Below, piece by piece: positions 47,686 through 63,122 of a stretch of DNA of 64,000 nucleotides (its first letter is position 1; the number at the start of each line of letters is the position of its first letter). Under the pieces are notes generated by a model. That model ran no database searches, was not told the origin of the DNA, and was given only the letters and a program-made list of their open reading frames with translations. The translations under genes and the position numbers were made by a program. Origin of the DNA: Synechococcus sp. BIOS-E4-1 (GTDB lineage: Bacteria; Cyanobacteriota; Cyanobacteriia; PCC-6307; Cyanobiaceae); contig NZ_CP047935.1 of assembly GCF_014279995.1 (NCBI RefSeq), positions 2,439,494 to 2,503,493 of the forward strand, given 5' to 3'.

Positions 47686-47752
47686 CGAGCATTTTGAGCA
47701 GCCTTCAACTTTAGATGCTGCTCCCTGGTTTGACTGCAAGAATGAGCTTCAT

Positions 47753-47826
47753 GCTCCCTTAGCTCAGCTGGATAGAGCAACTGCCTTCTAAGCAGTCGGT
47801 CGATGGTTCGAATCCATCAGGGGGCG
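47753..47826 (+). tRNA. tRNA-Arg (anticodon TCT)
   Basis: A full cloverleaf: acceptor GCTCCCT pairs with AGGGGGC, D-arm GCTC/GAGC, anticodon arm ACTGC/GCAGT with loop CTTCTAA (anticodon TCT, reads AGA), T-arm GATGG/CCATC with TTCGAAT loop. The CCA is not encoded. It marks the switch from core genes to the accessory region on its right. Confidence 0.95.
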
Positions 47827-47919
47827 TCAGTTACACCAAACGCACGGGAGGTCAACGGCCTGGCACTGGTGCGAACGATGTTGCAGGCGGCTGGGCGTGA
47901 TGCTGAGACGCCATGACTG

Positions 47920-49388: not shown

Positions 49389-49601
49389 ATGTCATTCATG
49401 CCAACAACGCTTTGGCAGCTTGCTATTTACATCGCGATGATTGCTGTTGGTGGTGGTTTGATGTTCAAAGGGCTTAAAGGATCAGGTGAGGAAAGGTCTC
49501 CGACTCAAGGCAGCCCACAATCACCAGACCAATACAACACTGATGTTTTGAAAGAACTGACTGACCTGAAGGATCAGATCAATCAAATGAAAAATAAGTA
49601 A
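49389..49601 (+). CDS. small single-pass membrane protein
   Basis: 70 residues from the ATG at 49389 (a GTG six bases earlier is in frame). One helix near the N-terminus (LWQLAIYIAMIAVGGGLMFKG), then a polar tail ending LKELTDLKDQINQMKNK, which looks like a short coiled coil facing the cytoplasm. No family recognised. Confidence 0.5.
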   Translation: MSFMPTTLWQLAIYIAMIAVGGGLMFKGLKGSGEERSPTQGSPQSPDQYNTDVLKELTDLKDQINQMKNK

Positions 49602-49602
49602 C

Positions 49603-49627
49603 TCGCTATCGATCTCCCGACAAAACA
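49603..49627 (+). repeat. 25-bp direct repeat, right copy
   Basis: Identical to 49015-49039, just before a terminator hairpin. Confidence 0.7.
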
Positions 49628-49643
49628 CCTCACACCAACCAAG

Positions 49644-49665
49644 CCCCGCCAAGTGCGGGGTTTTT
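49644..49665 (+). terminator. rho-independent terminator
   Basis: CCCCGC/GCGGGG stem, loop CAAGT type, then TTTTT. The same hairpin recurs at 50084-50106. Confidence 0.8.
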
Positions 49666-49875
49666 CACTGCCCTGGAGCCTTGGCTTCACCGGCTTCTGC
49701 GTGAGCTAAATCCAGTTGGGCACTCACTTCTGAGCGGTTCACCAGAAGCTCACTAGAACTTCGAGGGTTCTACACCAGAGCTATGTAGTGGGGTTCATCA
49801 GAAAGGCTGTGATCTTGAAGGAGTCGAGGGGGCAACGCCTCCAACACAACTCACACACTTATCAGCTTTAAAACA

Positions 49876-50043
49876 ATGACTACTTCAATCTTCAATGCTC
49901 CCTTGCAAATCAAGGAAGCTATTCCAACCTCCACCCAGCCAGAGCTTGAACCGCTCTTCGATCAAGAGTTGGAAGCTGCTGCTGGGGGAATGTACCTCGG
50001 CAATCTGGATCGCGTCCTGGCACCTCTGGGAAGAGTCTTGTAA
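49876..50043 (+). CDS. double-glycine leader peptide (55 aa), Cys-free core
   Basis: A 55-codon frame ending at TAA 50041. The sequence shows a leader of 38 residues ending FDQELEAAAGG, the double-glycine processing motif used by C39 peptidase exporters, then a 17-residue core starting MYLGNLDRV and lacking cysteine. The leader (MTTSIFNAPLQIKEAIP) is unlike Nif11 leaders. So it may be a bacteriocin- or signal-type peptide of another class, or a RiPP whose core is modified without cysteine. A strong terminator follows. The function and partners are not visible. Confidence 0.55.
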   Translation: MTTSIFNAPLQIKEAIPTSTQPELEPLFDQELEAAAGGMYLGNLDRVLAPLGRVL

Positions 50044-50083
50044 GAACTGAACGCAGGCCTCTCACCAAGTGAGATCAAGTACG

Positions 50084-50106
50084 CCCCGCCAAGTGCGGGG
50101 TTTTTT
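50084..50106 (+). terminator. rho-independent terminator after the 55-aa peptide gene
   Basis: CCCCGC/GCGGGG stem and TTTTTT; the same stem-loop as at 49644-49665. It also overlaps the 3' end of the convergent DUF3104 gene, so it may act in both directions. Confidence 0.8.
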
Positions 50107-50386
50107 ATTGCACTGATTCCCTCGGAAGGATATGAGTCACCAGTGCAGCGTTGACCCAGCGGATCATGCCTGAATCCACATCAGCGATCTGAATCAGGTT
50201 GCGAATGCTCGGGTCACGGGCAGCGCCGCCGCAGTAGATCACCTGCCCCATCCACCAATCCTTGTCAGACTTTTCGCAGGTCAGATAGTCGTGGCGCACG
50301 ATCACCGTCATGCCCGGAACCACGCTCAGGACGATCGGCTTCTCCGAGGGGTTCTGTTGGTTGTAGTGACCGTGATCGACTGACAC
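50105..50386 (-). CDS. DUF3104 protein
   Basis: 93 residues. The pattern VVPGMTVIVRHDYL, WWMGQVIYCGGAARDPSIRNLIQIADVD and IRWVNAALVTHI matches DUF3104, a short family I know only from marine picocyanobacteria, of unknown function. A degraded second copy of its tail lies at 54385-54440. It is convergent with the double-glycine peptide gene. Confidence 0.7.
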   Translation of the reverse strand: MSVDHGHYNQQNPSEKPIVLSVVPGMTVIVRHDYLTCEKSDKDWWMGQVIYCGGAARDPSIRNLIQIADVDSGMIRWVNAALVTHILPRESVQ

Positions 50387-50733
50387 GCTCTTGAAGCCAG
50401 GACGCCTGTATTAGTCATGCCCGGTAAACGCTGCCGCAACGGTCGCAACCAGGGAAGGCTCGGCATCATGTGCGGACTGACGCCTGATCCATACTTCGCC
50501 CTCTCTTCATTGGCTTGCTGGCTTCTGCTGTTGCTATCACCTCGCCAAGCGCAGGACTTTTCATGTTGATTCTTTCGATCCAGCTTTGCCGCTGAATATG
50601 ACTGAACTTCAAGCCAAATCTGGCTACTCCTTCCAACGAAGGATCTTGAAACCGTATCTTCTTGTGCGGCTGTTCCTCTTCCGACTTCTAAACAGCAGGC
50701 GTAGACCGAAAGGGTTCCAAACGGAGACACATC
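50387..50733. other. gap before first Nif11 gene; one doubtful 50-codon frame
   Basis: This stretch separates the DUF3104 gene from the first Nif11 gene. A 50-codon plus-strand frame (50417-50569) has a hydrophobic middle (SLACWLLLLLSP) but no clear ribosome site, so I do not call it. The upstream of the 50734 gene lacks the promoter block shared by the next Nif11 genes. Confidence 0.4.
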
Positions 50734-51018
50734 ATGTCCCAAGAACAGCTCCAAGCATTCATCGAAAAGGTCCAAGGTGACACCCGTCTTCAGGAGAAGT
50801 TCAAAGCTGCTGATGATTCAGACGCAGTTCTTGCGATTGCGAAAGAGGCGGGATTTATGATTTCTGCTGATAAGATGGCACAATCAGAGATGACTGAAGA
50901 AGAGCTGGAAGGCGCGGCTGGGGGGCTGCGGCGGCCGGGGTGTGTTAATTCCTTCTGGACCCCCCCGGTCAATCCTTCACTGTTTCACTGTTCGACTAGC
51001 ACTCCCTTCTGTGACTAG
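50734..51018 (+). CDS. Nif11-leader lanthipeptide-type precursor (prochlorosin-like) 1
   Basis: 94 residues. The first 64 are a Nif11-type leader (MSQEQLQAFIEKVQ...) ending EEELEGAAGG, the cleavage motif of ProcA peptides. The 30-residue core starts LRRPGCVNSFW and has three Cys plus several Ser and Thr, so up to three (methyl)lanthionine rings are possible if a LanM enzyme acts on it. No such enzyme is in the window. A 43-base stretch (50815-50857) is identical to the distant precursor at 62753-63025. A terminator follows. Confidence 0.85.
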   Translation: MSQEQLQAFIEKVQGDTRLQEKFKAADDSDAVLAIAKEAGFMISADKMAQSEMTEEELEGAAGGLRRPGCVNSFWTPPVNPSLFHCSTSTPFCD

Positions 51019-51045
51019 AACTCGACCGATGTGAGCCTACTCATC

Positions 51046-51069
51046 AAAGCCCCTGCGCAGGGGTTTTTT
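51046..51069 (+). terminator. terminator after precursor 1
   Basis: AAAGCCCCTGCGCAGGGG palindrome followed by TTTTTT. Related GCCCCTGC-type hairpins follow the other cluster members. Confidence 0.8.
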
Positions 51070-51074
51070 ATTGC

Positions 51075-51197
51075 TTCGATCACCCCAAAAAAGACCATCA
51101 ATCAGCCTCCGATACCTGGCACGATTGAGCGCAGTAATTGTTAGCCAAAGATATTGCAACAGGGTGTTGCTATAACCATTAAAGACTCTCGACACCC
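51075..51197 (+). promoter_or_regulatory. conserved Nif11 upstream block, copy B
   Basis: Directly precedes precursor 2. It contains a CACCCCAAAA stretch, then ACCTGGCACGATTGAGCGCA, TTAGCCAAAGA and TTGCTATAAC, the last resembling an extended -10 element 22 bases from the ATG. The same order recurs before precursors 3, 4 and 6. A shared promoter/regulatory block is inferred from repetition, not from a known motif. Confidence 0.65.
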
Positions 51198-51482
51198 ATG
51201 TCAGAAGAGCAACTGAAAGCATTCATCGCCAAGGTTCAAGCAGACACCTCAATACAGGAGCAGTTAAAGGCAGAAGATGCTGATGTTGTTGCTATTGCAA
51301 AGGCTGCTGGGTTCTCTATCACCACAGAAGACATAAAAGAGCATCATAAAAAGAAAGAGGATCGTCAAACCCCGTCTGATGCTGAGCTGGAAGGAATGGC
51401 TGGAATGACGGGTGTAGAAACCTGTGGGTTATTTTGTCATACACCGGGTGAATGCTGTGGCTGGTCCTTGTTGACTTGTTAA
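51198..51482 (+). CDS. Nif11-leader precursor 2, GM instead of GG at the cleavage point
   Basis: 94 residues. Leader MSEEQLKAFIAKVQADTSI, with an unusual charged insertion (HHKKKEDRQ) before AELEGMAG. The expected AGG motif is AGM here, so cleavage by a C39-type peptidase may be altered. The core starts TGVETCGLFC and has five cysteines, including one CC pair (ECCGW), and ends in LLTC. It could be a real but atypical precursor or one losing function. It has the conserved upstream block and its own terminator. Confidence 0.78.
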   Translation: MSEEQLKAFIAKVQADTSIQEQLKAEDADVVAIAKAAGFSITTEDIKEHHKKKEDRQTPSDAELEGMAGMTGVETCGLFCHTPGECCGWSLLTC

Positions 51483-51509
51483 GTATTTACGGCCACAGCC
51501 TACACACTC

Positions 51510-51537
51510 AAAGCTTCTGCGTTGACAGGGGCTTTTT
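51510..51537 (+). terminator. terminator after precursor 2
   Basis: Imperfect AAGC...GCTT hairpin with inner CTG/CAG pairs followed by TTTTT; a diverged copy of the hairpin after precursor 1. Confidence 0.6.
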
Positions 51538-51540
51538 ATT

Positions 51541-51664
51541 TCTTCAATCACCCCAAAAAGACCATCAATCAGCCTTCAATACCTGGCACGATTGAACGCT
51601 GTAAGTATTAGCCAAAGACACTGCATCAGGTCGTTGCTATGACTGCTGAACAGACCTCATACCC
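51541..51664 (+). promoter_or_regulatory. conserved Nif11 upstream block, copy C
   Basis: Near-identical to copy B: TCAATCACCCCAAAAAGACC, TACCTGGCACGATTGAACGC, TATTAGCCAAAGACACTGCA, then TTGCTATGAC. Precedes precursor 3. Confidence 0.65.
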
Positions 51665-51898
51665 ATGTCAGAAGAGCAACTCAAGGCCTTCCTCACCAAA
51701 GTCAAAGGCGATTCCAATCTCAAGGAGAAACTAAAAGCTGCTAAGTCGCATCTTGAAATTGTAACTATAGCTAAGGAGCATGGTTATGAATTCACTGTAG
51801 ATAAAATCATCCTGCTCAGTGATGAAGAACTTGAAAACGTGGCTGGTGGCACCAACTGGAGTACCGAGCTTGGAGGTAACTGGTGTCAATATGACTGA
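51665..51898 (+). CDS. Nif11-leader precursor 3
   Basis: 77 residues. Leader MSEEQLKAFLTKVKGDSNL... ends DEELENVAGG at residue 62. The 15-residue core (TNWSTELGGNWCQYD) has one Cys with Thr and Ser upstream, so at most one ring. The leader is very close to that of precursor 4, while the core is unrelated: the leader-conserved, core-variable pattern of prochlorosins. Confidence 0.82.
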   Translation: MSEEQLKAFLTKVKGDSNLKEKLKAAKSHLEIVTIAKEHGYEFTVDKIILLSDEELENVAGGTNWSTELGGNWCQYD

Positions 51899-51938
51899 CC
51901 TCATAACTTCCATGCACAGCTTGCGTATTCAAAAACTC

Positions 51939-52040
51939 ACAAATTAATCTCCAATATCTGGCATCAATTCAGCGCAGCAATTATTAGCCAAAGCCTCTAT
52001 AGCAGATCGTTGCTATAACCTTTGAAGACATCCGATAGCC
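51939..52040 (+). promoter_or_regulatory. conserved Nif11 upstream block, copy D
   Basis: Shorter, more diverged copy before precursor 4: ATATCTGGCATCAATTCAGC, AATTATTAGCCAAAGCC, then GTTGCTATAACC. Confidence 0.55.
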
Positions 52041-52271
52041 ATGTCCATAGAACAACTCAAGGCCTTCCTTGAAAAAGTCAAAGGTGATACCAATCTTCAA
52101 GCCAAGCTAAAAGCGGCAAAAACACCTGAAGATGTTGTAGACGTTGCTAAAGAACACGGTCACGAATTCACTGCTGATAAGATCAACCAGCTCAGCGAAG
52201 AGGAGCTGGAAGGCGTGGCTGGGGGATGTGGCTGTTTAGCTCTTGAGTCTCAATATTCTGGTGCAGCTTAG
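52041..52271 (+). CDS. Nif11-leader precursor 4
   Basis: 76 residues. Leader MSIEQLKAFLEKVKGDTNL... ends EEELEGVAGG at 62. The 14-residue core (CGCLALESQYSGAA) places both cysteines at the start, with only Ser as possible dehydration sites after them, so ring direction would be opposite to precursor 3. It has a terminator downstream. Confidence 0.82.
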   Translation: MSIEQLKAFLEKVKGDTNLQAKLKAAKTPEDVVDVAKEHGHEFTADKINQLSEEELEGVAGGCGCLALESQYSGAA

Positions 52272-52331
52272 TCACAATAGTGATTATGGGTGTTAGTTCA
52301 CTTTTATATGATTGAATCAAACTCATCAAAG

Positions 52332-52353
52332 CCCCTGCATTAGAGGGGTTTTT
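52332..52353 (+). terminator. terminator after precursor 4
   Basis: CCCCT/AGGGG hairpin with TTTTT; same family as the hairpin after precursor 1. Confidence 0.65.
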
Positions 52354-52739
52354 ATTTCTTCAATCACCCCTAATAGCCCATGAATAATCCCTCAATGCCT
52401 GGCACGATTGAGCGAAATAGCTTTGTAAGATTTCGGGGTATTGATGGGTGTCCAGCGCTCCTTCTCGCCCGTCAAGATCTTGGATCGTGAGGTCTGCTGT
52501 TCAGTGATGAGCACTGCCCTTTTCGCTAAATTCGGCGAAATCTCATTGACACCAAAACAGTGTCAAGCTCTCGCCTGAGTTTTTTGTAAATCCGAACGTA
52601 ATCAGCCATCGGAGCGAAGTCTAGAACTGCCTGTAAAAAATGAACTTGCTCGGGCAGTTAAATTAACCCTATTTTGGCTCAATTTCACCTAATTGATTCA
52701 GAAGATATAGCTATAAAATGATTTAAGATTTTGTTTCTG
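52354..52739. other. gap with a solitary Nif11 upstream block, then unassigned sequence
   Basis: The left part (52357-52414) repeats the spacer and ATGCCTGGCACGATTGAGCG segment but then diverges, without the TTAGCCAAAG part or a gene: a truncated cassette. The rest (52415-52739) holds no convincing ORF. An AT-rich TATAAAAT just before the next gene could be a -10 box. Confidence 0.5.
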
Positions 52740-53021
52740 TTGTCAAATGATCAACTCAATGCCTTCATGCAGCGGGTTTCAGCTGACGAAGGTCTGCGGT
52801 CTAGACTTAAAGCATCAACAAGTCCTCAGGCGGTCGCTGAGATAGCCAAGGAACTTGGTTACACAGTTCCTGTGGATGATTTGTACGCAGGTGATTGCCT
52901 TTCAGCACAGGAACTTGAAGCGGTTTCCGGCGGTGGAGGTGCCAGGGCACAGAAAAGCTGTACTTGGGGATGCGTTTGTAAGACGTCCTTGGACAATGAA
53001 GTCGGATACCCTGAAGAATGA
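52740..53021 (+). CDS. Nif11-leader precursor 5, divergent
   Basis: 93 residues from a TTG at 52740, which gives MSNDQLNAFMQRV, the counterpart of MSEEQLKAF. The leader is the most diverged and carries a cysteine (AGDCLSAQELEAVSGG). The core begins GGARAQKSCTWGC with three Cys (SCTWGCVCKTS), and Thr/Ser nearby. It lacks the conserved upstream block, and has its own terminator, a different hairpin. It may belong to a second lineage of the family. Confidence 0.72.
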   Translation: MSNDQLNAFMQRVSADEGLRSRLKASTSPQAVAEIAKELGYTVPVDDLYAGDCLSAQELEAVSGGGGARAQKSCTWGCVCKTSLDNEVGYPEE

Positions 53022-53037
53022 GGTCGTAGATATTGGC

Positions 53038-53065
53038 AAATTGCCCTCTTTTGAGGGCAATTTTT
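53038..53065 (+). terminator. terminator after precursor 5
   Basis: TTGCCCTC/GAGGGCAA stem with TTTT loop, followed by TTTTT. Confidence 0.8.
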
Positions 53066-53129
53066 GATTCGGGAAAGGGAACACCTGTCTCCTCAACGCT
53101 TCAGTCTTGTCGTTGGAGTGAAGTGATGA

Positions 53130-53354
53130 TCACCAGACCGAGATGGTCTCGCTGCTTCCGACTGTCCAGAGTGTGAGGCCTTTGCTGATTGCGATCGCCA
53201 TGTAGGCCGTGGCCTCGGCCATGTGGCTGTTGTCGTCATCCATCGGCTCGGCTTTGCCGGGTTTGAAAGTCAGGTTCCGCAGTGAACGGATCACCCGCTT
53301 GCAGGTCGAGTCCACCTGGAGTCGGCGCTGGCCGTCGGCCGACAGGATCCACAT
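53130..53354 (-). pseudogene. phage terminase large subunit, C-terminal remnant
   Basis: A 74-residue frame resembling the tail of phage terminase large subunits: GQRRLQVDSTCKRVIRSL, NLTFKPGKAEPMDDDNSH, and AEATAYMAIAISKGL match the nuclease-domain end. The rest of the protein is missing, so this is a fragment. It diverges from the terminase small-subunit remnant. Confidence 0.5.
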
Positions 53355-53396
53355 TCAAACTTCATTGGCATCAATTGCGCCTGTCAGAATTGATGC

Positions 53397-53739
53397 ATGG
53401 GTAAGAAATGCACAAAGGCTGAGAAGACAGCGCTTTTAAGAGCTGGCCAATCTGATCGTCAAAGGTTTATCCCAACGACAGCTCATGCACCATGTGACGA
53501 ATTCATGGGGGCTGTCTTCAGAACAAGCTTCTCGATACGTCCGCGAAGCAAGGGATGTGGTGAAGGCTGACCTCAGCGATATTGACCGGGTCGACATGCT
53601 TGCCAGCAAGGTGCAGATGCTGGAGCAGATCGCTACTGATGCAGTTGCAGTAGGCAGGGAGAGCAATGCGATTGGTGCAATCCGTCTGCTGAATGAACTT
53701 GTGGGATTCGGGGCAGGACAGAAGCCTGGATTTCGCTGA
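53397..53739 (+). pseudogene. phage terminase small subunit-like gene, frameshifted
   Basis: The ATG at 53397 begins MGKKCTKAEKTALL, then the matching continuation ELANLIVKGLSQRQLMHHV and SSEQASRYVREARDVV is in another frame (open from about 53450, annotated ATG at 53485). Together they look like a terminase small subunit: HTH then coiled coil (MLASKVQMLEQIATDAVAVGRE). A single frameshift near 53440 separates the halves. Alternatively the gene starts at 53485, in which case the HTH would be cut. Confidence 0.55.
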
Positions 53740-60298: not shown

Positions 60299-60682
60299 TC
60301 AGCGCAGCTTCTGCATCAGCTGAGTCATCAGCACGAGCGCATCGCTTAGCGACACGCAGACCCGTGCATCAAGAGCTGACTGCTCCGGCATCGCCTCCAG
60401 CTGCTCACGGACACGACCAAGCGAGCGGAGCATTGCTGTGGATCTCAGCCGTGGCTCTGCATCCAGCTGCTCCAGGAAATCGGTCGTGTCGTTGCTGCAG
60501 TCGGGGCGACCACTGAACGCGTCCCACACCGTTGCGGTTGGCGTGGGTTCAAGAGGAAAGCCACTGATGCCCCCATCAGCAGCAGGTTCGACGGGCGCCC
60601 TTTCGACAACGATGCCCCCAGGCTCGATGTCTTGAACGGGTGGATCCACCACGTCGTTCAGAAGCCTTGATCTCATGCTCAT
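60299..60682 (-). CDS. hypothetical protein, last gene of a four-gene phage-like operon
   Basis: 127 residues from ATG 60682, which overlaps the previous stop (ATGA type). Polar, helical C-terminus (SLGRVREQLEAMPEQSALDARV). No family recognised. Confidence 0.5.
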   Translation of the reverse strand: MSMRSRLLNDVVDPPVQDIEPGGIVVERAPVEPAADGGISGFPLEPTPTATVWDAFSGRPDCSNDTTDFLEQLDAEPRLRSTAMLRSLGRVREQLEAMPEQSALDARVCVSLSDALVLMTQLMQKLR

Positions 60683-61140
60683 GCCATTGCCCCTGCGGGT
60701 TGTCTCGTCTGTTGCTTCATTCGTTCCAGGCGCTCTTGAACTAATCGCCTTGGGTCGAACTCTTTTCTTGCTTTGGCTCGTTCCTGCAGGTCTCGATCTC
60801 TCAAGAGACCAAGCCACAGCTGTTCGTAATCACGACGCTTTGCCGCTTGCTCCCATTCCTTATTGAGCTGTCTGTCTCTGCGGGCTTCTGCATAAGCAGA
60901 CGCCTTCAACAACAAGCGCAGTTGAGTCAGCTCAGCTGGTGAGCCAATGCTGTTGTCGATGCGTTTGTAAGCCCACTGGACAACACCATCAGCGCCGCCA
61001 AGCTCATAAATCCCAGCAATGGTTGCGGTGAATCGCTTGGTCTTGCCTGCTCGATTGAACTTCAGATGACGAGTGACCGCTTCCTCAGAACTCATTGCAG
61101 GTTTACGGGCTGAGCCCTTGTCAGACCTTGTGGCTCTCAT
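60679..61140 (-). CDS. hypothetical basic protein, third gene of the operon
   Basis: 153 residues. Strongly charged and helical (EWEQAAKRRDYEQLWLGLL), with overlapping start and stop. Could be a DNA-associated or scaffold-type protein; not recognised. Confidence 0.5.
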   Translation of the reverse strand: MRATRSDKGSARKPAMSSEEAVTRHLKFNRAGKTKRFTATIAGIYELGGADGVVQWAYKRIDNSIGSPAELTQLRLLLKASAYAEARRDRQLNKEWEQAAKRRDYEQLWLGLLRDRDLQERAKARKEFDPRRLVQERLERMKQQTRQPAGAMA

Positions 61141-62087
61141 GCACCAGCCCCTTGGCGCTGCTCGGCCATCAGCGCTGCATCACGCTTCTGGCGGCGCACG
61201 TATTCAGAATCCATCCGCCCGGCATGAACACCATTCGGGAACTGGATCTGCAGCTCTTCAGCAACGGCATCCACCAGCGCAGCGAACTGCGATCGCCACT
61301 GCTCGCTGACGGCCGTCGTCGCCATGGTGTTGACCTCACCTCTGGTGATCGGATCAGTCCAGGCATCGGTCTGACCCTCCAAGTTGGCGAGCGACACCTC
61401 AAGCTTCTGCTGACGGGTTTCACCAGCCACCAGCTGCGCCTCAACTGCGTTGCCCCTCTGCTCCATCAACGCCGTGGTGCTCTTCACCGATCCCGACAAC
61501 GCATCAATCGCAGTCGCCTGTGCTTCGAGCTGATCGCGATGCTCCGCTGCAGCCTGCTCACGCTCTTGCTGATGCTGCGCAGCCTCCTGACCGGCTTCAG
61601 CCCTGATCGCCGACAGATTGGTGACCTGCTGCGCGATCGCTGCCTCTTGCTCCAGCAACGCCGTGGATTTATCGGCCTGCACCTGCAGATCCATCTGATC
61701 CATCCGCCGCTGCTGCGCTTCCACCAGCGTCAGCAACGTGGCCACCTGGCTCTCCAGCACCTTCCGCGCCTTGCGTTCTGAATCCAGTGCATCCAGAACA
61801 CCATTGGCGACGGTGGCAACAGTGTTTTCATCAGCGGTCTGCTGCTGCCGCTCGGCTATCAACTCCTTAAACCGCTTCTGATCCGCGGGGGAGAGATCGA
61901 AGAACTCTTCTGGATAACGATGACCATCACTGCCCTGAATAAACCGACCGCTGGGGGCTGCTGACGGTGCAGCAGCAGCAGGAGTGCCGAGCACTGCAGG
62001 TTCAGCAGGTGCCTCCACTTCGCCGAGGGCTCTCCTACGAGCGCGATCAACAGCACCCGCCGGTGCCTTCTTGATTGCTTTAGCCAT
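61137..62087 (-). CDS. coiled-coil protein, second gene of the operon
   Basis: 316 residues. Low-complexity Ala/Pro N-terminus, then DGHRYPEEFFDLSPADQKRFKELIAERQQ (in parts), then a long Gln/Glu/Ala-rich coiled coil (about 100-250). The layout resembles phage scaffold or tape-measure-like proteins, but I could not match it to a family. Confidence 0.5.
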   Translation of the reverse strand: MAKAIKKAPAGAVDRARRRALGEVEAPAEPAVLGTPAAAAPSAAPSGRFIQGSDGHRYPEEFFDLSPADQKRFKELIAERQQQTADENTVATVANGVLDALDSERKARKVLESQVATLLTLVEAQQRRMDQMDLQVQADKSTALLEQEAAIAQQVTNLSAIRAEAGQEAAQHQQEREQAAAEHRDQLEAQATAIDALSGSVKSTTALMEQRGNAVEAQLVAGETRQQKLEVSLANLEGQTDAWTDPITRGEVNTMATTAVSEQWRSQFAALVDAVAEELQIQFPNGVHAGRMDSEYVRRQKRDAALMAEQRQGAGA

Positions 62088-62563
62088 CAGCTCATCACTC
62101 CCTGACGCTGCTGTTCACGAGCCGCTTGCTCTGCGTCCTCTGCAGCAATCAGCCGCTTCGCCTGGCGCTCATCACCACCAGCACGAACCACAGCGTTCTG
62201 GAAGCGCTTCTGATTGGCGCCGTCTTCCAATGCCTTCAGCTGTGCCTCAAGGCCCTTCTCTCGCTGCTGCTGAAACTCAGCAACGAACTCAGGATCATGC
62301 GCCCACAAATCAGCCTGCGCCGCAGCACTTAACTCCTCTCCACCCTGTAGCTCCGCAATCGTCGCCACACTCAGCGATCCACCAGCAGCAACGCGCCACC
62401 TAGCAGCCTGCGCTGGGTCAATCTCTGCCATCGCTGCCTGCAACATCCCCGCAGTAGATCCATTCTTCTCGAACGGATTACTAGGGCTGATCTTGCTCGA
62501 ATCAATGCCTGCCATCTTGCAAGCTTGATTCAATAATTGAATCTGCTTTGGTGTCATTTTCAT
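62087..62563 (-). CDS. hypothetical protein, first gene of the operon
   Basis: 158 residues from the ATG at 62563 (MKMTPKQIQLLNQACKMAGI). Gln/Ala/Glu-rich helical C-terminal half, no recognised domain. Its stop shares a base with the next start, so the four genes are probably translated together. Confidence 0.5.
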   Translation of the reverse strand: MKMTPKQIQLLNQACKMAGIDSSKISPSNPFEKNGSTAGMLQAAMAEIDPAQAARWRVAAGGSLSVATIAELQGGEELSAAAQADLWAHDPEFVAEFQQQREKGLEAQLKALEDGANQKRFQNAVVRAGGDERQAKRLIAAEDAEQAAREQQRQGVMS

Positions 62564-62627: not shown

Positions 62628-62672
62628 CTGCGCTCAATCGTGCCAGGCATTGGAGGCTGATTTATGAGATTA
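62628..62672 (-). promoter_or_regulatory. solitary partial Nif11 upstream block, copy G
   Basis: On the minus strand, downstream of precursor 6: CAGCCTCCAATGCCTGGCAC and GATTGAGCGCAGT, then divergence. Same truncation as at 52357-52414 on the other strand. Confidence 0.5.
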
Positions 62673-62752: not shown

Positions 62753-63025
62753 CTATACGCATTTATAATCATCTACCACACCTGTCTGATATAAACTCCC
62801 TGCGGTACATTTACCACCAGCCACATTTTCCAATTCTTCTTCAGAAAGCTTTTGTTGAACCTGTTTCAGGTTATCAGCAGAGATACTAAATCCCGCCTCT
62901 TTCGCAATCGCAAGAACTGCGTCTGAATCAGCAGCAGCAGCAGCTGCAGCAGCTTTTAGCTTCTCCTGAAGGCTGGTGTCAGCTTTGACTTTGGCGAGGA
63001 ATGCCTTGAGTTGCTCTTCTGACAT
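62753..63025 (-). CDS. Nif11-leader precursor 6 with poly-Ala expansion
   Basis: 90 residues. Leader MSEEQLKAFLAKVKADTSL..., with a run of eight alanines (about 25-32) from a GCT/GCA trinucleotide tract, then DSDAVLAIAKEAGF identical to precursor 1, ending EEELENVAGG. The core (KCTAGSLYQTGVVDDYKCV) has two Cys near the ends and three Ser or Thr between. Precursor 1 shares 43 identical bases, so recent exchange or duplication between the two is likely. Confidence 0.83.
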   Translation of the reverse strand: MSEEQLKAFLAKVKADTSLQEKLKAAAAAAAADSDAVLAIAKEAGFSISADNLKQVQQKLSEEELENVAGGKCTAGSLYQTGVVDDYKCV

Positions 63026-63122
63026 GGGTATTAGGTCTATTCAGCAGTCATAGCAACAGTCTGCTGCAGTGTCTTTAGCTAATACATACTGCGCTCAATC
63101 GTGCCAACGAGTCGGAGTTGAT
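63026..63122 (-). promoter_or_regulatory. conserved Nif11 upstream block, copy F
   Basis: On the minus strand: TTGGCACGATTGAGCGCAG, TATTAGCTAAAGACACTGCA, then TTGCTATGAC and ACCTAATACCC before the ATG. Very close to copy C. Confidence 0.65.

Follow-up and report, generated by a model that had tools for sequence, protein, structure and literature searches.

A probable prochlorosin-type precursor array in Synechococcus sp. BIOS-E4-1, far from the candidate modifying enzymes of its genome

Five adjacent genes for Nif11-leader peptides stand on the plus strand of a 64-kb stretch of the Synechococcus sp. BIOS-E4-1 genome (the window; bases 2439494-2503493 of the single contig, C1, of 3,314,220 bases), and a sixth lies farther along on the minus strand. 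We consider it very likely that this array is a small set of class II lanthipeptide precursors of the prochlorosin/synechococsin type, and it is one of many such arrays in the genome; what we say of the modification, export and function of its peptides is predicted from sequence. A first-pass annotation of the window had called the array an orphan cassette cluster, with no LanM or C39 peptidase in the 64 kb. None of the LanM or C39 matches of our whole-genome searches indeed falls inside the window. The genome, however, holds two full CCG-type LanMs, three C39 domains and at least 150 Nif11 places, and the orphan reading therefore fails: a lack of nearby enzymes does not by itself make a precursor array an orphan.

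Precursor genes and the enzymes of the genome

Do the six genes carry true Nif11 leaders? All six precursor open reading frames (ORFs) pass the curated cut-offs of both PF07862 (E-values 3.4e-13 to 2e-20) and TIGR03798 (53.1-88.1 bits; cut-off 32.3), and therefore the leader match is not due to chance. The array comprises gene 1 (50734..51018; PF07862 5.5e-15, TIGR03798 74.1 bits, 3 Cys in the core), gene 2 (51198..51482; 5.5e-15, 80.3 bits, 5 Cys), gene 3 (51665..51898; 2e-20, 80.3 bits, 1 Cys), gene 4 (52041..52271; 3.2e-20, 88.1 bits, 2 Cys) and gene 5 (52740..53021; 3.4e-13, 53.1 bits, 3 Cys), with gene 6 at 62753..63025 on the minus strand (6e-16, 84.5 bits, 2 Cys). For gene 5, the TTG start at 52740 (MSNDQL..., as in relatives) is the better choice over 52731. 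All six genes are open, with no internal stop, and by direct reading Ser or Thr accompanies Cys in every core. The first-pass annotation was thus right about the five same-strand genes, about the sixth and about cores with 1 to 5 Cys plus Ser/Thr; the GG-type leader end that it gave to all holds for five of the six, as the leader of gene 2 ends in ...EGMAGM. It had also proposed a Nif11 profile check of the leaders and a genome-wide search for LanM and C39 genes, and the former matched all six precursors, while the latter yielded two full-length LanMs and three C39 domains.

Where are the enzymes that could act on these peptides? Both LanMs score above the family cut-off (723.5 and 708.1 bits), with a third LanM-like place below it (98.6 bits). 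The two full-length proteins have WCHG and CCG and no internal stops; CCG is given as characteristic of ProcM-like enzymes in passages of PMC10783134. Along the contig, the candidate enzymes lie ~0.28 and 2 Mb from the array. LanM2 (C1:2202991-2206374, ~284 kb away) is 87.6% and 88.9% identical to its counterparts in two relatives, and the same-strand gene run around it includes an ATP-binding cassette (ABC) protein fused to one of the three C39 domains, a second ABC protein, and HlyD-like and TolC-like genes. The best NCBIfam matches of both ABC proteins and of the HlyD-like protein are to the NHLP/Nif11 bacteriocin export families TIGR03796, TIGR03797 and TIGR03794, albeit with scores under the curated cut-offs (704 against 853, 515 against 709 and 80 against 156 bits, respectively). 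A divergent Nif11 gene (500407-500676) lies ~0.6 kb from LanM1.

We propose that each gene of the array supplies a Nif11 leader with its own core, mostly as a self-contained transcription unit, as the conserved 5' DNA of many such genes and the terminator-like sites behind genes 1, 2 and 4 suggest. A promiscuous LanM of the CCG type, most likely LanM2, would probably recognize the leader in trans. By homology, LanM2 would remove water from Ser/Thr and join these residues to Cys in (methyl)lanthionine rings, the C39-ABC protein of its gene run would cleave after the double glycine, and the product would leave the cell through this protein with its HlyD- and TolC-like partners. Arrays probably expand by duplication and undergo turnover within islands, two of which have a tRNA at one edge; leaders and flanks would thereby remain alike across species and cores diverge.

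How many precursors would share these enzymes? At least 150 Nif11 places in the genome exceed the cut-off (9 of the 150 with an internal stop), a lower bound, as 150 of 276 first-look candidates were scored. A custom profile found 198 Nif11 ORFs at E 1e-3 in 0.58 Mb of BIOS-E4-1 stretches, window included, a set that also takes in fragments and non-prochlorosin Nif11 peptides. A start-and-junction regular expression passed 155 of them and dropped 43, and the core contains both Cys and Ser/Thr in 146 of these 155 clean precursors. Distance from the enzymes is also seen for many further Nif11 clusters. In line with these counts, passages of PMC10783134 credit a strain, spelled BIOS-E1-4 in that paper, with 143 SyncA and two ProcM-like enzymes. 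The parts consulted of PMC9024877 give 3.31 Mb for the largest of 54 genomes, with the strain not named there, and describe BIOS-E4-1 as richest in repeats; those of PMC7522525 ascribe to it the largest gene number, with three gaps reported versus the one contig here. Across the genus, a LanM above the cut-off occurs in 12 of 31 genomes, with a weak match in one more. The 12 carry from 12 to at least 135 Nif11 places versus 4-15 in the other 19 (up to 135 candidates were scored per genome, so that the counts for BIOS-E4-1 and its relative G028 are lower bounds; one-sided Mann-Whitney, P = 4e-6). At ≥90% completeness the difference holds for 11 versus 13 genomes (P = 4e-5). BIOS-E4-1 is thus an extreme case of lanthipeptide making with few enzymes and many substrates.

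The cores of genes 1-4 and 6 show no mutual resemblance, as the first-pass annotation had said of all the cores. Among 164 BIOS-E4-1 cores compared, a single pair came near to matching at the chosen global-alignment threshold, namely gene 1 and its copy; the threshold is strict, and the sisters of gene 5 score below it. For 15 of the 164, a near match was found among 135 cores from stretches of relatives, an incomplete sample. The core of gene 4 has an identical copy at another locus (L111) in G028, where similarity to BIOS-E4-1 breaks at 3208614, beside a tRNA-Val (3208616-3208687). An ungapped identity profile of the precursor DNA, computed at fixed offsets, is not used here as proof of unrelated cores because the 3' block described below also appears unconserved in it. 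A hypervariable core behind a conserved leader fits genes 1-4 and 6 and not gene 5, which has two sisters in the genome and eight database matches, at least one of them (P0005) from the same genome. In an alignment of seven sequences (the window gene, both sisters and four of the eight database matches), the core positions SCxxGCxCKxSxxxExGYP are invariant in all seven. Its fixed core sets gene 5 apart from the other Nif11 peptides of the array, and it may have a role of its own.

Passages of PMC10783134 describe prochlorosins and synechococsins (ProcA/SyncA, modified by ProcM/SyncM) with the features found here: Nif11 leaders, genes in tandem and scattered, variable Cys/Ser/Thr cores and a CCG-type LanM elsewhere in the genome. 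The logic of one promiscuous enzyme acting in trans, as first proposed for this array, is supported as far as sequence allows. Several results weigh against it. The core of gene 5 departs from hypervariability, the leader of gene 2 lacks the GG, and the core of gene 3 has a single Cys. A consensus promoter scan of 50300-53500 gave two sites versus 3.1 in shuffles, none of them before an array gene, and for this reason the promoters of individual genes are postulated from conservation alone. Some Nif11 peptides occur in all 31 genomes, including the 19 without a LanM above the cut-off, and the leader alone is therefore no proof of modification by LanM. The Mann-Whitney test, moreover, counts related genomes as independent, making its P values only a guide.

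The shared 3' block and the tRNA-Arg island

What do the precursor units share besides the leader? They have leader DNA and roughly 130 nt upstream of it in common (ungapped profile), and many share a 3' block that ends in a TGGCACGATTGAGC-like motif. Within the array this intergenic block—a terminator-like site followed by the TGGCACGATTGAGC end—is clear on the plus strand behind gene 1 (51046..51135; terminator-like 51046-51067, TGGCACGATTGAGCGCAGT at 51117-51135), gene 2 (51510..51602; a terminator-like site and an end motif with 2 mismatches over 19) and gene 4 (52328..52418; terminator-like 52328-52352, end motif 52400-52418). No terminator-like site was found behind gene 3; overall there were nine such sites versus 3.4 expected from shuffles. 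The end motif also flanks gene 6, upstream at 63093-63106 and downstream at 62632-62645. The copy of gene 1, at C1:1958113 (96% over 692 bp), has its right edge at the motif end.

The 14-mer end motif has 178 copies in the genome at up to 2 mismatches (reversed control, 6). Nif11 genes have 124 motifs nearby, 85 of which precede a Nif11 start by 20-140 nt. Of the other 39, several are followed at ~205 nt by a gene with the class B 5' element described below, and others lead into non-Nif11 DNA. A AATCAGCC anchor stands behind 110 of the 198 BIOS-E4-1 ORFs versus 61 of 400 random stretches. Five relatives, G005, G012, G016, G025 and G028, also carry the left portion of the block as far as CCTGGCAC, but G018 (four anchored blocks) barely shows it; G009, G022 and G023 yielded fewer than four blocks each. 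In G005, and partly in G012, CCTGGCAC is followed instead by a hairpin-like, terminator-like stretch, GCCCGC...GCGGGC. To us, the block looks like the 3' portion of a repeatedly duplicated unit. The end motif is unlikely to be simply a promoter operator, because its distance to the start codon varies (~81 nt in one class of genes, ~205 nt in another and 340 nt for gene 5) and because the first genes of arrays, by reading, mostly lack it.

The array lies downstream of a tRNA-Arg (TCT; 47752..47828, plus strand, by ARAGORN) that forms the left edge of a variable island. At the DNA level the window resembles G028 up to 47835 and G025 up to 47827, and similarity to G016 begins at 53385 (this comparison covers the right side only). 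The matching island region of G028 and G025 also has Nif11 genes, and at the threshold used none of their cores matched a window core. The array region resembles tRNA-targeting genomic islands such as tycheposons in beginning at the tRNA-Arg 3' end and in the repetition of the 24-mer at that end in two relatives (two further copies in each of the G028 and G025 stretches at up to 4 mismatches). It differs from them in that the window holds no second copy of the 24-mer at this tolerance and no match of two tested recombinases. At up to 3 mismatches, the 24-mer recurs elsewhere in the BIOS-E4-1 stretches searched: near a different Nif11 cluster it occurs at C1:2728101, where the match is exact, and at 2723158, and locus L068 has two copies.

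Recombination proteins near precursors are mentioned in the parts of the prochlorosin literature consulted. The 3' block, the tRNA-Arg island and the class B element do not appear in the main-text passages of PMC10783134 consulted, nor are the block and the 5' element mentioned in the parts consulted of the mostly open-access literature on prochlorosins and genomic islands.

At locus L047, a 362-aa tyrosine-recombinase-like protein (C1:1181735-1182820) ends ~0.1 kb from an array end motif, with relatives beside a tRNA-Ser (C1:1954704) and at C1:1974078. Pfam and PHROGs (E 0.01) and NCBIfam (0.1) gave no match for it, and the PDB has no related sequence. A low-confidence model (mean predicted local distance difference test score 55; below 50 from residue 206 on) matches lambda integrase with E 2.4e-4 and a template modeling score of 0.27. 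Directly after the end motif of gene 6, the minus strand (60299-62563) carries four genes for unknown proteins that match nothing in PHROGs or Pfam at E 0.01. The DNA that follows this motif is also present, over its first 0.6-1.5 kb, at C1:2729991-2731562, 949738-951372 and 1563626-1564241.

The double-glycine peptide and class B element upstream of the array

Just upstream of the array, the ORF at 49876..50043 (plus strand) encodes a double-glycine peptide, MTTSIFNAP...LEAAAGG / MYLGNLDRVLAPLGRVL. It has no Cys, it recurs in BIOS-E4-1 and G028 stretches, and the scans that detected the six Nif11 leaders gave it no family match. The gene is preceded by a class B 5' element (49704..49875, plus strand) with four phased CACCA-like repeats, starting at positions 37, 48, 70 and 93 of this copy; the spacings of 11, 22 and 23 are as expected of tandem response-regulator sites. 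The element has 67 nhmmer matches among the stretches searched, in several genomes. By reading, the genes behind the 27 full-length BIOS-E4-1 copies comprise 12 for Nif11 peptides, 8 for other double-glycine peptides, 5 for secreted-like peptides and 2 others; two further copies are partial. This common element suggests that genes for small exported peptides may form a single regulon. Array assembly and co-regulation could be approached through the 3' block, the tRNA-edged islands and the phased-repeat element.

In an alignment of 56 of 59 selected class B sequences, the four repeats and the stretch around CTGTGATCTTGAAGGAGTC behind them are near-invariant. A riboswitch is unsupported: RNAalifold gave three pairs and no compensatory changes on the same sequences. 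At the gathering score, Rfam found nothing at the element in three other loci, and at E up to 5 it gave only nine subthreshold matches in 49500-50200, the best being to the Yfr1 small RNA model (49609-49663, E 0.0069, 25.7 bits; gathering 38).

Competing readings and further LanM loci

Could the array be a true orphan or in decay, its precursors no longer modified? The 64 kb without a LanM or C39 match and the internal stops in 9 of the 150 listed Nif11 places would fit, but we regard this as highly improbable given the two intact LanMs and three C39 domains of the genome, the six open genes of the window and the many other Nif11 clusters likewise distant from enzymes. The peptides might instead be exported without lanthionine rings or be modified by another enzyme, which would apply most readily to gene 5, with its invariant core residues, and to the Cys-free peptide at 49876. 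The sharing of the class B element with other double-glycine peptides points the same way, as does a LanM-like protein with a match to the dehydratase domain only, near an NHLP-like precursor (C1:1539826-1543391). Overall we think this unlikely: five of the six leaders score at least 74 bits against TIGR03798, and in genes 1-4 and 6 the core contains both Cys and Ser/Thr.

Assembly of the array by an integron-like, site-specific recombination acting on the 3' TGGCACGATTGAGC end seems quite improbable to us. As in integron cassettes, head-to-tail units share their 3' end but contain different genes. The motif closes many units and is followed by differing 5' modules, and a lambda-integrase-like protein ends close to one motif copy. 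Among 16 unit pairs examined (one without a single match), 11 have the motif downstream; their right similarity edge lies no more than 5 bp from the motif end in five, beyond it in three and short of it in three. The block itself is conserved, however, and edges of homologous exchange are therefore expected at the same place; conservation of the block alone could explain the pattern. Unlike integron cassettes, the array units seem to have 5' regions of their own, and no integron integrase exceeds the TIGR02249 cut-off (four weak matches lie below it). A different hairpin follows CCTGGCAC in G005 and partly in G012, G018 barely shares the block, 106 of the 198 precursor ORFs have no motif (up to 3 mismatches) in the 200 nt upstream, and viral contigs gave no exact 19-mer match. 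Bolder still, and in our view quite doubtful, the small-peptide genes of the genus, whether for Nif11 lanthipeptide precursors, further double-glycine peptides or secreted ones, would be exchangeable cassettes of a class-specific 5' module, leader, variable core and common 3' block ending in CCTGGCAC. These would be swapped at the block, with tyrosine recombinases like the 362-aa protein carrying them from one tRNA-bounded island to another. If true, cassette exchange would be an integron-like system for peptide diversity.

Apart from the array, the locus of the dehydratase-only protein (L055, C1:1539826-1545941) has four precursor-like genes, the scanned one at 35.5 bits versus an NHLP leader cut-off of 50.9 and the other three called by reading; an akin enzyme is found in G028. 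A ~3-kb insertion adjoins LanM2 (L066, about C1:2199908-2202971) and is absent from the same site in the G025 and G028 stretches, the comparison with which shows flanks overlapping by about 78 and 135 bp. A CCG-type LanM ~48% identical to LanM2 occurs in an alphaproteobacterial record, Roseovarius lutimaris (L080).

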